Shown here in pieces: positions 5,005 through 14,036 of a stretch of 14,036 bases of DNA (position 1 is its first letter; each line of letters begins with the position of its first letter). The notes below the pieces were generated by a model. The model saw nothing but the letters and a program-made list of their open reading frames with translations, made no database searches and had not been told where the DNA came from. The DNA is taken from contig JAGGVT010000185.1 of assembly GCA_021157815.1 (NCBI GenBank), positions 1-14,036 on the forward strand, in the 5' to 3' direction. Both the position numbers and the translations under genes were made by a program. The DNA is from a bacterium. Its GTDB lineage: Bacteria > JAJVIF01 > JAGGVT01.

Positions 5005-5182
5005 GCGGCTCAGTTTGGAGGATTAATTTAATAGACCTGCCTAATGGGGATACCGTTTTCAAACCGCTGAGCATTTCATCCCATAACGGCATATAAAATC
5101 GGTAAAGATTTTTAGAATCCCTGGTATGGAAAGCAGCAAAGTACGGGCATAATGAACATCTTATTTAATGTGAGGATTTGTG
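5005..5182 (+). other. Long untranslated leader of the isomerase gene
   Basis: About 170 noncoding bases lie between the predicted start site near 5011 and the isomerase start. GCTCAG at 5008-5013 can pair with a CTGAGC about 60 bases later, which would enclose a GGAGG at 5017-5021 that precedes no usable start codon. I matched no known riboswitch or small-RNA consensus. It may be a plain leader, a structured regulatory leader, or an independent small RNA made from the strong promoter. Confidence 0.4.
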
Positions 5183-6298
5183 GTGGAAGAGAGTGATTTT
5201 GAAAAAGAACCAAACCGCGGATTTATCGAAGGATTTTCCCGCAAATATGATCCCAAAGGTATGTTAAGCTGGGTTGAGGATTGGCCTGGAATTATCATCA
5301 GGGGACAGGATGAGTTTATCCTCAATGAAGAACCTGTAACTGACGTTAAACCGGATGATTTTGACAAGATTGTCATGTCCGGCATGGGTGGGAGTGCGAT
5401 GGCGTGCTCCATTGTCTGTTCTCTAATTGGCAAAAAGAGAAAACCGATTAAGATTGTCAAAGGATATGGCATACCGGCATGGGTGGATGAAAAAACGCTG
5501 TTTATCGCTGTAAGTTACAGCGGAAATACTGAAGAGGTTATCTGGAACACAACGCAGGCGTTTAACAAGGGTGCGAAAATAATAATAGTTACATCCGGCG
5601 GTGGATTGAAGGACATCGCGGAAAAAGTCGGATTGCAGTTAATAAAGGTATATGGCCAGTGTCCTACACCAAGAGCGGCTTTGGGATATATATTGATGCC
5701 TTTGGTAAGGCTGTTCATGGATATCGATATCCTCGATAAAACGGAAACTGTTGAATCGGTTACTGAAGTGATAAAGACCATAATCCGCGAAAGAAAAAAA
5801 TACACCTTCTTCCTTGATGAAGAGAAAAATTTTGCCAAAAAGCTGGCTCGTGAATTGAAAAACTCATTCCCAATTATCTGGGCGGAATCTGATTTCACAA
5901 AGCCGATTGCAATGAGATGGCAGCAGCAGCTTAACGAAAATTCAAAAACACTAGCGCATTATGGGAATTTCCCTGAGGTTAACCACAACGAAATTCTGGC
6001 TTTCCAGTTCAAACAAAGGGAATGGCTTGTAAAGGATGTTCTCATGCTGGTTCTTCGTGATCCGGAAGAGCATCCGCGAATCACGCTCCGCATCGATTTC
6101 ACAACAGACATAATTCGCCCTATGATTCGAGGTTTGTACCAGATAAAGCCAAAAGGCAAAAGCAAATTATGCCGTATCCTGAGCCATATTCAGATTGCGG
6201 ATTATGTCAGTGTCTATCTTGCGCTTCTTAATAAAACCGACCCGTCGAATCAGAATCACATTGATGAATTGAAAAAGAAAATCCATCTGATTAAGTAG
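5183..6298 (+). CDS. Bifunctional phosphoglucose/phosphomannose isomerase
   Basis: This cytoplasmic enzyme interconverts glucose-6-phosphate and fructose-6-phosphate and also mannose-6-phosphate and fructose-6-phosphate. It has two SIS folds in 371 residues. Visible motifs are GMGGSA (67-72), the phosphate-binding SYSGNTEE (111-118), and PTPRAALGY with R164. The catalytic set known from the archaeal PGI/PMI family (Arg, Glu, His, Lys) matches R164, E252 in LNENS, H268 in NHNE and K351 near the C-terminus; the Glu-His spacing of 16 is the same as in the archaeal enzyme. The length is slightly above that of the archaeal enzyme. Two adjacent GTG codons at 5180 and 5183 could start it; GAGG at 5172-5175 gives 7-base spacing to the second, which is chosen. 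It ends only 11 bases from a duplicated copy of the M16 gene end. Confidence 0.93.
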   Translation: MEESDFEKEPNRGFIEGFSRKYDPKGMLSWVEDWPGIIIRGQDEFILNEEPVTDVKPDDFDKIVMSGMGGSAMACSIVCSLIGKKRKPIKIVKGYGIPAWVDEKTLFIAVSYSGNTEEVIWNTTQAFNKGAKIIIVTSGGGLKDIAEKVGLQLIKVYGQCPTPRAALGYILMPLVRLFMDIDILDKTETVESVTEVIKTIIRERKKYTFFLDEEKNFAKKLARELKNSFPIIWAESDFTKPIAMRWQQQLNENSKTLAHYGNFPEVNHNEILAFQFKQREWLVKDVLMLVLRDPEEHPRITLRIDFTTDIIRPMIRGLYQIKPKGKSKLCRILSHIQIADYVSVYLALLNKTDPSNQNHIDELKKKIHLIK

Positions 6299-6335
6299 CA
6301 TCTTGAATATTATTTAGCTATTACGAAAAAACCCT
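6292..6335. repeat. 44-bp direct repeat, left copy
   Basis: This segment matches 6598-6641 at 41 of 44 positions, including 31 identical bases in a row. It starts in the last codons of the isomerase gene (TTAAGTAG) and then carries, on the minus strand, a copy of the last codons of the M16 peptidase (FFVIAK and stop). It is therefore a duplicate of the junction between two convergent genes. In the inferred ancestor the two stop codons lay only 11 bases apart. Confidence 0.9.
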
Positions 6336-6372
6336 ATTTCAAGTTATTTCGTTTTCTCAAAACTATCTTTTT

Positions 6373-6551
6373 CTGGGAGCGCTGGTCTCTGACCGGCACC
6401 TGAACAAGGTTTATAAAAATCAACAAAATATATCTAACAGACAACATCACTAAAAGAAAATAGTTGAATTTACCAATCCTGTCCGAAAGATTCCCTTTAT
6501 TTCATTTCACGTTAGTTTGCTCAGGTGCCGGTCAGAGACCAGCGCTCCCAG
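6373..6551. repeat. Perfect 31-bp inverted repeat pair (GGAG-type REP pair)
   Basis: The arms at 6373-6403 and 6521-6551 are perfect reverse complements over 31 bases, separated by 117 AT-rich bases. Each arm is a small hairpin by itself: GCTGGTC-TCT-GACCGGC (6381-6397) with GGAG at its 5' foot. This is the layout of REP singlets in an inverted pair. It lies inside the 262-bp block (6336-6597) enclosed by the 44-bp direct repeats, between the convergent isomerase and M16 genes. It could act as a two-way barrier to transcription, but neither side has a clear T-run. Confidence 0.9.
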
Positions 6552-6597
6552 GAAAAGTATTTATCTCACACTATAGAGAAAGTTTTTCAGGGACAGC

Positions 6598-6641
6598 TAA
6601 GTAGTATCACGAATATTATTTAGCTATTACGAAAAAACCCT
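6598..6641. repeat. 44-bp direct repeat, right copy
   Basis: This is the second copy of the junction duplicate, 306 bp from the first. It contains the working 3' end of the M16 gene (stop at 6616-6618) and, upstream, a vestige of the isomerase end (TAAGTAG). The three differences from the left copy all lie outside the M16 coding part. Confidence 0.9.
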
Positions 6642-9276
6642 TATCGGGTGTAAGATATTTATCGCGCACTCGCAGGATGTCGTCGAGGGTGGCATCGTAC
6701 CATTCATCGATTGGGTCATACTCGATATCTTTACCATTGTACAGATTCAGCCCCATGTAGTATGCCTGATTCATGCGCTTTGCACGATAGCGGAACATCT
6801 GCGCCGTTTTCGAATTAACTGCCAGTTCCATGTCGCGCTGGGATATTTCCATAGATTTGCACATGCCAAGTACATCACGGATTCCTTTTTTTGCTTTATC
6901 GATGTTTTCAGGGCCTGTTCCCATTGCGAGGTAGAAATAACCATCGCTGTCATCAAGATTGAATGATGCGCCAACCGAATATGCCAGCCCCTGGCGTTCT
7001 CGCAGTTCAAATGCCACTTCCTTGCTGACAATCGAACCCAGCGCTCTTAGTGGGATTCTGTCTTTTTCGGGAACGTTATTGACTGGATATCCGAAAATGA
7101 TATAGCTCTGAGGACCGCCTGCTTCAATCTGAATGTCATCAGAAGGCTTTCCTGAATATTTAGTAGCCGGGAATTTTGATTTTACCCTGGCAAACTCCAT
7201 CCCTCCGAAAGCATCCTTAATTTTCTTCATTACTTCTTCGCTGTCGATGCTTGTAGTTACTGTAAGGATTATATTATCCGGCGCGAAGAATATCTTTCTG
7301 AAATCGTGGATGTCTTCAAGCGTGATGCTGTTTACAGTTTCCATTGTACCCATGATTGGGCGTGTCAGAGACGAATCTCCCATTACAGTATTTTTAAAGG
7401 CTTTTTTCGCTTTCGTTCTCGCGCTTCCATGTTTTGGGCCAAGAGAGTGAATCATTCCGGTACGTGATGATTCAAGGATATCCTCGGTTATGCCATCGTT
7501 TACGATAATTCCAGCCGCGAAATCGATGCTTTCATCCCAGAACATGTCAAGGCCGTTGATTCGAACATAGCTGTATTCGGGATCAAGGCAGTAATCATCA
7601 AAAGGAATATAGGAATAGTCGTTGGTTTTAATATCGATACCAAGCTTGCTCATTTTCATTTGGATATCATCCGCGCTCATTTCAGGCGTGCCTTTTGTGA
7701 TTGTTCTGTGTAAGAGATCAGCAATTCCATCCTTGCCTTTAGGCTCGAGGTAACATCGATTTTTATAAAGGAAATGCATTCCGAAAACTTCACTTGAATT
7801 GTCCTGCTTGATTGCGACTGTTAATCCATTTGGAAGAACTTCCTTTGTCCATTTGGCGTCAAACGCTTTTTCTGACAAGCCGCCAGCGGGAAAAGGCTTT
7901 GAAATGTATGTTTGAAAGCTCGGGGAAAGCAGATATTTTTTCCTTACTGAGTCGATGTCATCGGTGGTAACGCTTTCAACCTTGCCGCGTTTTTGGTCAA
8001 TGTAATCCCATCCCCAGTTTGTGGCATCCGCGAGAACGTACAGTCCGAAAATCATCATGTTATCAAGCATCTTGATTTCATTTGCGATAGTGCTGATTTT
8101 AACGCCATCAAGTTTATCCTGTGATGTTTTAGCAATTCCCACATTCTGAATAGCATCCATGATGTGCTCTTCAGTTTCATCATCCGTTAATGAACCTGGG
8201 ATTTTGCCTGAAATAATCAGACGGCATCCGGGTTTGTATGTAATATGCTCAATCGAAACCTGAATTGGGTCGGATGGATTTATTTTTTTTAAGTATGAAT
8301 TCAATTCATCCTGAAGAAGATCAACCATAATCATGAATGGAATGCCGTCATCATCTGTGGGAATAGGAGCGTTAAGAATAATGCTGATATCCCGTGCGGC
8401 TTTGGGAACGTAATCTATCATCCGTTCGTGTTTTGTTATGGGTGGAAGGATGACATCATCGATTTGAATATCATTAGGCTGCGCCTTGCCATAGTACTTT
8501 TTAATGAGTTCAAGCATCTCGCCCGGATTGAAATCACCAGCTACAACCATTATCATGTTGTTCGGCACATACCACTTTCGCCAGTAGTTGCGAATATCAT
8601 CCGCATCCAGTTTGTTGATGCCGTCAACGGTGCCAAGAACCGTTTTTTCAAACGGCGTTCCGCCGTATATCCAATTACAAAAATTCGCTTTTACAGCGTA
8701 AGCGGGACTTTCCATGCTGCCGCGTATTTCCTCCGATACAATCCCCATCTCCTTTTTCACTTTTTCAGGGCTGATAACCGAATTGAAAAGCATGTCGCTT
8801 TGGATATCCATTCCGGTTTCGATGTTTTTCGATGGAATCGTAATCATGAACGCGGTGTAATCCTTGCGTGTGTAGGCGTTGTTGTAGCCGCCAATCAGGT
8901 CCATCTCATCATAGAGTTCCTGTTGAGTTCGTTTTGTGGTTCCGTTGAACAGCATATGCTCAAGAAAATGCGTGATTCCGTTGTGGCGGTAATCCTCAGT
9001 CGCGGACCCCGCTTTTATGGCGACAAACACAGTAATAAGCGGTGTGGCGTGATTTTCAATCATTACCACCTTAAGGCCATTATCCAGGCGCATCGTTATC
9101 GCGTTGTATGTGGAATCATACGCAGATGCCTCTGCTACGGGAATTTTTGCAGGCGTTGATGCCTCCGGTTTCATCATCATGCCCGGATGCGCTGATGCGC
9201 CTGTCAAGAAGAAGCAAATATGAACGGCAATTGCGAGTATTGCCAGTTTTCCAATCAAACTTGATTTAACAGCCAT
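6616..9276 (-). CDS. Exported two-domain M16 (insulinase/pitrilysin family) zinc peptidase
   Basis: The 886-residue protein has a signal peptide at 1-29 (ASA cleavage) and two M16 halves. The first half carries the inverted zinc motif HFLEH (103-107) and the third zinc ligand at E183, 76 residues later, in SEEIRG. The second half has lost the motif (DLLHR at 519-524) but keeps the R-x6-Y pair at R759/Y766 in RERQGLAY, which lines the active site from the non-catalytic half. This is the usual arrangement of single-chain M16 enzymes, which enclose and cleave short peptides. It probably acts in the periplasm. The ATG at 9276 has GAGGT six bases upstream. The gene converges on the isomerase and its final codons are part of the 44-bp duplication. 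The exact substrate is unknown. Confidence 0.93.
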   Translation of the reverse strand: MAVKSSLIGKLAILAIAVHICFFLTGASAHPGMMMKPEASTPAKIPVAEASAYDSTYNAITMRLDNGLKVVMIENHATPLITVFVAIKAGSATEDYRHNGITHFLEHMLFNGTTKRTQQELYDEMDLIGGYNNAYTRKDYTAFMITIPSKNIETGMDIQSDMLFNSVISPEKVKKEMGIVSEEIRGSMESPAYAVKANFCNWIYGGTPFEKTVLGTVDGINKLDADDIRNYWRKWYVPNNMIMVVAGDFNPGEMLELIKKYYGKAQPNDIQIDDVILPPITKHERMIDYVPKAARDISIILNAPIPTDDDGIPFMIMVDLLQDELNSYLKKINPSDPIQVSIEHITYKPGCRLIISGKIPGSLTDDETEEHIMDAIQNVGIAKTSQDKLDGVKISTIANEIKMLDNMMIFGLYVLADATNWGWDYIDQKRGKVESVTTDDIDSVRKKYLLSPSFQTYISKPFPAGGLSEKAFDAKWTKEVLPNGLTVAIKQDNSSEVFGMHFLYKNRCYLEPKGKDGIADLLHRTITKGTPEMSADDIQMKMSKLGIDIKTNDYSYIPFDDYCLDPEYSYVRINGLDMFWDESIDFAAGIIVNDGITEDILESSRTGMIHSLGPKHGSARTKAKKAFKNTVMGDSSLTRPIMGTMETVNSITLEDIHDFRKIFFAPDNIILTVTTSIDSEEVMKKIKDAFGGMEFARVKSKFPATKYSGKPSDDIQIEAGGPQSYIIFGYPVNNVPEKDRIPLRALGSIVSKEVAFELRERQGLAYSVGASFNLDDSDGYFYLAMGTGPENIDKAKKGIRDVLGMCKSMEISQRDMELAVNSKTAQMFRYRAKRMNQAYYMGLNLYNGKDIEYDPIDEWYDATLDDILRVRDKYLTPDKGFFVIAK

Positions 9277-9322
9277 TTTTTACCTCGTGGTTTTTCATTT
9301 GAAGACCTTAAAATTAAATTCA

Positions 9323-9531
9323 CTTTGTAACCCGGCGTCCCCTCGCCGGGATTTCCAGCCATACCCCGGGAAAGGATTCCCGGGTTACAAGCTGTTTCTC
9401 TTTTTTTTCAGAGGTCTCTTTTGATAACTTTGTAACCTGGCGTCCCCTCGCCGGGATTTCCAGCCATACCCCGGGAAAGGGATCCCGGGTTACAAGCTGT
9501 TTCTCCTTATTTCAGAGGTCTCTGTTGATAA
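9323..9531 (+). repeat. Tandem pair of about 105-bp GTAA-type palindromic elements
   Basis: Unit 1 (9323-9427) and unit 2 (9428-9531) are nearly identical and head to tail. Each is bounded by TTGTAACCCGG (CCTGG in unit 2) and CCGGGTTACAA and contains two hairpins. In unit 1 these are CCCGGCG-TCCCCT-CGCCGGG (9331-9350) and CCCGGGAA-AGGA-TTCCCGGG (9365-9384). Read on opposite strands, both hairpins start with GTAA, so each unit is itself an inverted REP-like pair. A 3' tail of T-rich tract plus CAGAGGTCTCT follows, shared with the element at 3679-3740. The repeats fill the gap between the divergent M16 and mutase genes. No ORF of note lies there. Confidence 0.9.
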
Positions 9532-13820: not shown

Positions 13821-13853
13821 CCCTTAGTCCCCCCGCGAGCGGGGGGAAATATT
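13821..13853 (+). repeat. Second copy of the C6-GCGAGC-G6 hairpin element
   Basis: This 33-base stretch matches positions 1-33 with two substitutions in the same orientation. It forms the same 7-bp GC hairpin and runs straight into the 38-bp tandem array, whose units share its TTAATCCC start and GCGGGGAAA end. It lies about 65 bp upstream of the M1-like start codon. Confidence 0.85.
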
Positions 13854-13859
13854 TCCCTC

Positions 13860-14036
13860 TTAATCCCAACACGGGCGGGGAAAAGTGTTTTTCACTCTTA
13901 ATCCCAACACGGGCGGGGAAATATGTTTTTCACTCTTAATCCCAACACGGGCGGGGAAATATGTTTTTCATTCTTAATCCCAACACGGGCGGGGAAAAGT
14001 GCTTTTCATTCTTAATCCCAACACGGGCGGGGAAAA
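13860..14036 (+). repeat. 38-bp tandem repeat array, cut by the window edge
   Basis: Four full units (13860, 13898, 13936 and 13974) and a 25-base partial fifth run to the end of the window. Each unit begins TTAATCCCAACACGGGCGGG, followed by an AT-rich half containing GTTTTTCA. Only a few positions differ between units (AAGTG or ATATG, CACTC or CATTC). The unit looks like a decayed version of the GC hairpin just before it that then spread by tandem duplication. The true length is unknown because it continues past the window. Confidence 0.92.

Follow-up and report, generated by a model that had tools for sequence, protein, structure and literature searches.

Organization of the locus

The window, meaning the whole stretch of 14,036 nucleotides that was analysed, contains a junction of two convergent genes, a PGI-type isomerase gene and an M16 peptidase gene, whose facing ends are separated by a block with paired inverted arms. 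The features of this region are as follows (coordinates, strand where one applies, description).

5180-6298, plus strand: PGI-type isomerase gene with SIS and bact-PGI_C domains, stop codon at 6296-6298
6292-6335: left 44-bp copy, holding the isomerase stop and, as a non-coding duplicate, the end of the M16 gene
6327-6366, plus strand: left tail of the element, apparently lacking its outer ~14 nt and joining the target at AAAAAACC from 6327
6367-6407, plus strand: left REP-type arm
6408-6516: element spacer, common to other copies
6517-6557, minus strand: right REP-type arm, inverted
6558-6599, minus strand: right tail of the element, with the canonical end ...CAGGGACAGC-TA
6598-6641: right 44-bp copy, holding the native M16 gene end and a duplicate of the isomerase stop
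6616-9276, minus strand: M16 peptidase gene, ending at 6616-6618, with its GFFVIAK-stop codons within the right copy

A preliminary description of this DNA had claimed that 44 bp of the junction occur twice around a 262-bp block with a perfect 31-bp inverted repeat, and that both genes survive the interruption. All of this is borne out. Indeed, 6292-6335 and 6598-6641 form a direct repeat with 41 of 44 positions identical, with all three mismatches in its first 14 nt and an exact match over its last 31 nt, while the 262-bp insert (6336-6597) is flush with both copies, without extra bases. The perfect 31-bp core sits inside the two arms, which are inverted repeats of each other over 41 nt at 95% identity. 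Both genes survive because each retains one intact copy of its own end: the final Lys codon and stop of the isomerase lie in the left copy, and the end of the M16 gene lies intact in the right. The repeat is far beyond chance, as local alignment of the left against the right flank gives a score of 35, compared with a maximum of 16 among 1332 mismatched left/right flank pairs taken from other copies of the element. An att-type repeat of an integrative element was considered and rejected, since only the REP pair lies between the two copies, flush on both sides. No known RNA family reached threshold in the window.

A dispersed family of paired inverted arms

A search of the organism's own genome (3.2 Mb in 221 contigs) with the insert identified the block as a member of a dispersed family, with related blocks at about 50 sites and long matches of 72-87% identity. 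In particular, the core of the arm, GGTCTCTGACC, matches the genome 37 times in forward and 35 times in reverse orientation, compared with none for a reversed control, and the 23-nt arm, with up to two mismatches, gives 49 and 44 matches there and none in three genomes of the same class. Copies of the family pair inverted REP-like arms at a distance of about 145 bp. The length bounded by the two arms is 168-175 bp in almost every complete copy, with exceptions of 191 and 386 bp. The longer of these, L015 (G000:C86:11854-12354), spans 386 bp from arm to arm against about 173 bp, and represents either a longer variant or an insertion inside the element. Many of the tails outside the arms are inverted repeats of each other that end in TA-GTCGTCCCTGAAAAA, and an end scan of ten copies showed terminal inverted repeats flanked by TA. 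The stem of the arm carries a compensatory change in a sub-family, from GGTC-TCT-GACC to GGTT-TCT-AACC. A single arm can form a 7-bp hairpin that is no better than those of shuffled sequences (z -0.99), and the whole element, as single-stranded DNA, has a strong hairpin fold (z = -10.3).

The copies occupy extragenic positions: none of the 36 examined lies inside an open reading frame of at least 150 aa. Of 33 copies flanked on each side by such a reading frame, 16 have convergent and three have divergent neighbours. Copies mostly adjoin the 3' ends of genes, and the ends of the element often fall at stop codons.

The same genome also holds arrays of octamers, (GTTAGCAA/GTTAGCAG)n, over dozens of contigs (L134-L143 are examples), and a 21-mer of these arrays has about 1300 matches with up to two mismatches. 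One end of the element copy at L028 lies directly inside such an array. The array was considered as a natural empty site for that copy and set aside, as with ~1300 unit matches the other half of the insertion could not be assigned.

One canonical and one irregular end

The two ends of the copy in the window differ. Its right end, CAGGGACAGC-TA, fits the family end. On the left, homology of the insert to the family extends ~9 nt into the left 44-bp copy, starting at 6327, and homology to the tail consensus begins exactly in an A-run, AAAAAACC, that is common to the target and the tail. When scored with a weight matrix built from 38 other tails, the outer 12 nt of this left end reach -1.8 bits, the lowest value of any tail, and with the TAG set aside roughly one in three background positions does equally well. 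The left tail therefore lacks its outer ~14 nt, with target sequence in their place. The copy in the window combines a canonical end with a microhomology joint. This microhomology is A-rich, and a part of the match at AAAAAACC could be due to chance. There is a small chance that the left end is complete but decayed, since its TAG keeps the register of the terminal repeat and TAGCTAT also stands at this place in one other copy, L015.

The native end of the M16 gene

Homology and structure modelling both bear on which 44-bp copy is the original one. The M16 protein ends in DKYLTPDKGFFVIAK. In alignment with its three best homologues of full length, its terminal GFFVIAK falls at their ends, LVVVTVK, LLICIAE and TFFIVR. 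An AlphaFold2 model of the protein has its final strand at residues 881-885, with a pLDDT of about 90 in the last block. These homologues and the predicted fold identify the right copy as the native M16 gene end. The left copy therefore holds the duplicate and, on the natural reading, one ancestral convergent junction with stops 11 bp apart was split. Indeed, rejoining the two halves into one junction places the isomerase and M16 stops at exactly the spacing that the preliminary description had given, and its view that one such junction was split, leaving 44 bp present twice, is supported by the homology and the model.

The end of the M16 gene was also considered as a captured tail of the element, a tempting reading since L015 reads the same TAGCTAT at the equivalent place. 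It was rejected, both because the outer 12 nt, apart from the TAG, match tails at background level and because the homologues end at an equivalent strand, which is also a strand in the AlphaFold2 model.

A junction without the insert was sought in relatives. Among 59 genomes searched, three of them sharing the class, none has the isomerase locus with an adjoining M16 gene. The nearest genomes in this set are the class-mates, at about 37% identity in the isomerase, and contig scans using the isomerase and a 29-nt arm as queries gave no matches.

Flanking duplications at other copies

The terminal repeat defines both ends in ten copies of the family, including the one in the window. The longest exact repeat between their flanks is 31 nt in the window, 13 nt at L065 and 5-8 nt at the remaining eight, with mismatched pairs reaching up to 9 nt. 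Flush duplications above chance are thus found at two of the ten copies. The copy at L065:1500-1800 (G000:C146, about 23900-24190) has a flush 13-bp direct repeat, GAAGAAGTAGCAA, that includes the stop codon of the adjoining gene and, like the copy in the window, it has imperfect ends. None of the copies with two good canonical ends has a flank repeat above chance, and the 8-bp repeat TGAATAGG at L008 was discarded as a candidate, as it does not exceed the range of mismatched pairs. Spaced repeats of this type are otherwise rare in the sampled sequence of this genome.

The preliminary description had suggested that the duplication could mark an unusual insertion or repair mechanism. A special insertion mechanism of the element is not supported, as only one of the nine other end-defined copies has a flush duplication (13 bp) and the rest are at chance. 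A comparison of flanks at other copies thus goes mostly against it, most being without a duplication, while L065 means that the window is not wholly alone. Since the duplication is absent at most copies, it is not a habit of the element and looks like a one-off repair accident. The defective left end with its microhomology also points to an unusual junction of the repair type.

Relation to known elements

In REPINs and BIMEs, a GTAG or GTGG foot is usual, not universal. The foot of the present element is GGGAG, unlike those feet, and the element is therefore named REPIN/BIME-like and not a proven REPIN. It resembles these elements in its high copy number, its dispersed extragenic sites and the presence of RAYT-type Y1 transposase genes in the genome. 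Like the TA-target MITEs of bacteria, which include ERIC, Correia and IS630-derived elements and have terminal inverted repeats bounded by TA, it also has terminal inverted repeats bounded by TA. An IS630-type parent was sought and rejected: the genome has two decayed DDE_3 fragments, neither with the ends of the element.

As in a REPIN, a REP doublet forming a hairpin (Bertels and Rainey 2011, PMC3116915), the inverted REP-type arms are paired and enclose a conserved spacer. Unlike a REPIN, the element is longer, about 260-290 bp with its tails, its arms lie 109 nt apart, and it has extra inverted tails of ~50-60 nt. Some classes are reported to have feet that deviate from GT[AG]G (PMC6006769). 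The family is also like GTAG-tagged REPs and BIMEs (PMC3733652) in that the ends of copies often give the neighbouring gene a TAG stop and many copies lie between convergent genes, and ends at stop codons are indeed reported for GTAG REPs; sequence and foot differ from those of BIMEs and GTAG REPs, and the TAG of the element lies at the outer end of the tail.

Ordinary insertion sequences make target duplications of 1-14 bp (PMC11708052). The direct repeat in the window is like these in being flush with the insert and unlike them in that, at 44 bp, it is longer, its length varies by copy and it is absent at most copies. The passages on REP elements taken into account describe no target duplication. 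In vitro, REP DNA is cut and rejoined by TnpA-REP, and how the elements disseminate is stated to be unknown (PMC8266576).

There are nine matches to the Y1-transposase (RAYT-type) domain in the genome, and one Y1 gene has a hairpin with a GGGAGCGC foot just upstream, its stem sequence different from that of the element; a RAYT-type mover of the element is thus plausible. At L101:1991-2230, immediately upstream of a RAYT-type gene, a separate 84-bp REP-like unit with GGCTGTCACC palindromes is present in two copies spaced 156 bp apart.

A proposed history and its alternatives

On balance, the junction was probably split, and 44 bp of it copied twice, when a REPIN/BIME-like element was inserted or repaired in a non-canonical way. 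The target of this lineage-specific element would have been a convergent gene pair whose stops were separated by 11 bp. The right end of the element would have joined the TA dinucleotide at the isomerase stop in the usual way of the family, and its left end would have joined the target 44 nt away, at the microhomology AAAAAACC with the M16 gene end, the left tail losing its outer ~14 nt on joining. The sequence from one joining point to the other may then have been duplicated while the element was inserted or the site repaired, either because a long staggered gap was filled in or because the polymerase switched template. From this arrangement we infer a single event behind both insertion and duplication, the order of its steps, the repair route and the involvement of a RAYT. 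Duplication and insertion could also be separate events, and a canonical insertion may have come first, with its left end repaired later.

Several other orders of events have to be weighed against this history. Slippage might have duplicated the 44-bp junction in tandem before the element entered a TA at the border of the copies: the joined tandem would read CCCT-TA-AGTAG, with the TA, the usual target, exactly at the border, and the window has other tandem duplications at 9322-9531 and 13852-14036. The left tail would have been shortened later, by a deletion between two AAAAACC runs. Three events and a chance insertion at the border are required, and plain gene junctions rarely occur as spaced or tandem duplicates in the sampled sequence of the genome, so that we regard this order as unlikely. 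It is very improbable that the element entered the last codons of the M16 gene without duplication, that flank and element were then duplicated in tandem and that the second element was excised precisely. For REPINs of Pseudomonas fluorescens, tandem units including their flanks, and excisions, are described (PMC3116915), and the REP-like unit at L101 is itself tandemly duplicated upstream of its RAYT-type gene, but this route takes three steps and an interval with the M16 gene broken, and tandem copies of the element family were not seen in the genome. An assembly chimera, in which the insertion points of the element in two strains differ by 44 bp and the contig fuses the left side of one to the right side of the other, would fit the fragmented assembly, with several of the 221 contigs breaking inside the element, and the three differences between the 44-bp copies. 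Two independent insertions within 44 bp would be needed, and the pattern is absent at other copies, which makes such a fusion extremely unlikely. These three orders are possible and less economical than the non-canonical insertion or repair event.

The duplication might instead belong to how the family moves. The flush repeats of 44 and 13 bp at two copies would agree with a mechanism that regularly leaves variable long target duplications of about 10-50 bp; eight of the ten end-defined copies, some with well-kept terminal repeats, are nevertheless at chance, and such regularity appears quite improbable. Scarcely less doubtful is the weaker form, in which a REPIN-like element at times inserts via long staggered cuts or primed copying, with variable duplications of 13-44 bp; if true, it would be an undescribed step in REP dispersal. 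At this locus, one copy of a new REPIN-like family has left a real and somewhat unusual footprint, which is not evidence for a new insertion system. Under the favoured insertion or repair event, the canonical end, the microhomology joint and the 44-bp duplication together suggest a rare footprint of an insertion gone wrong. Such a footprint, at this single locus, may constrain models of REP movement towards ends that are joined singly and a target gap of tens of bases.

Neighbouring repeats in the window

Two further repeats lie in the window. At 9322-9531, just upstream of the M16 gene, a 105-bp unit with two GC-rich palindromes occurs twice in tandem (93%), a second duplication in the window that involves palindromic repeats. 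At 13852-14036, a 38-bp unit is repeated 4.9 times, up to the end of the contig.
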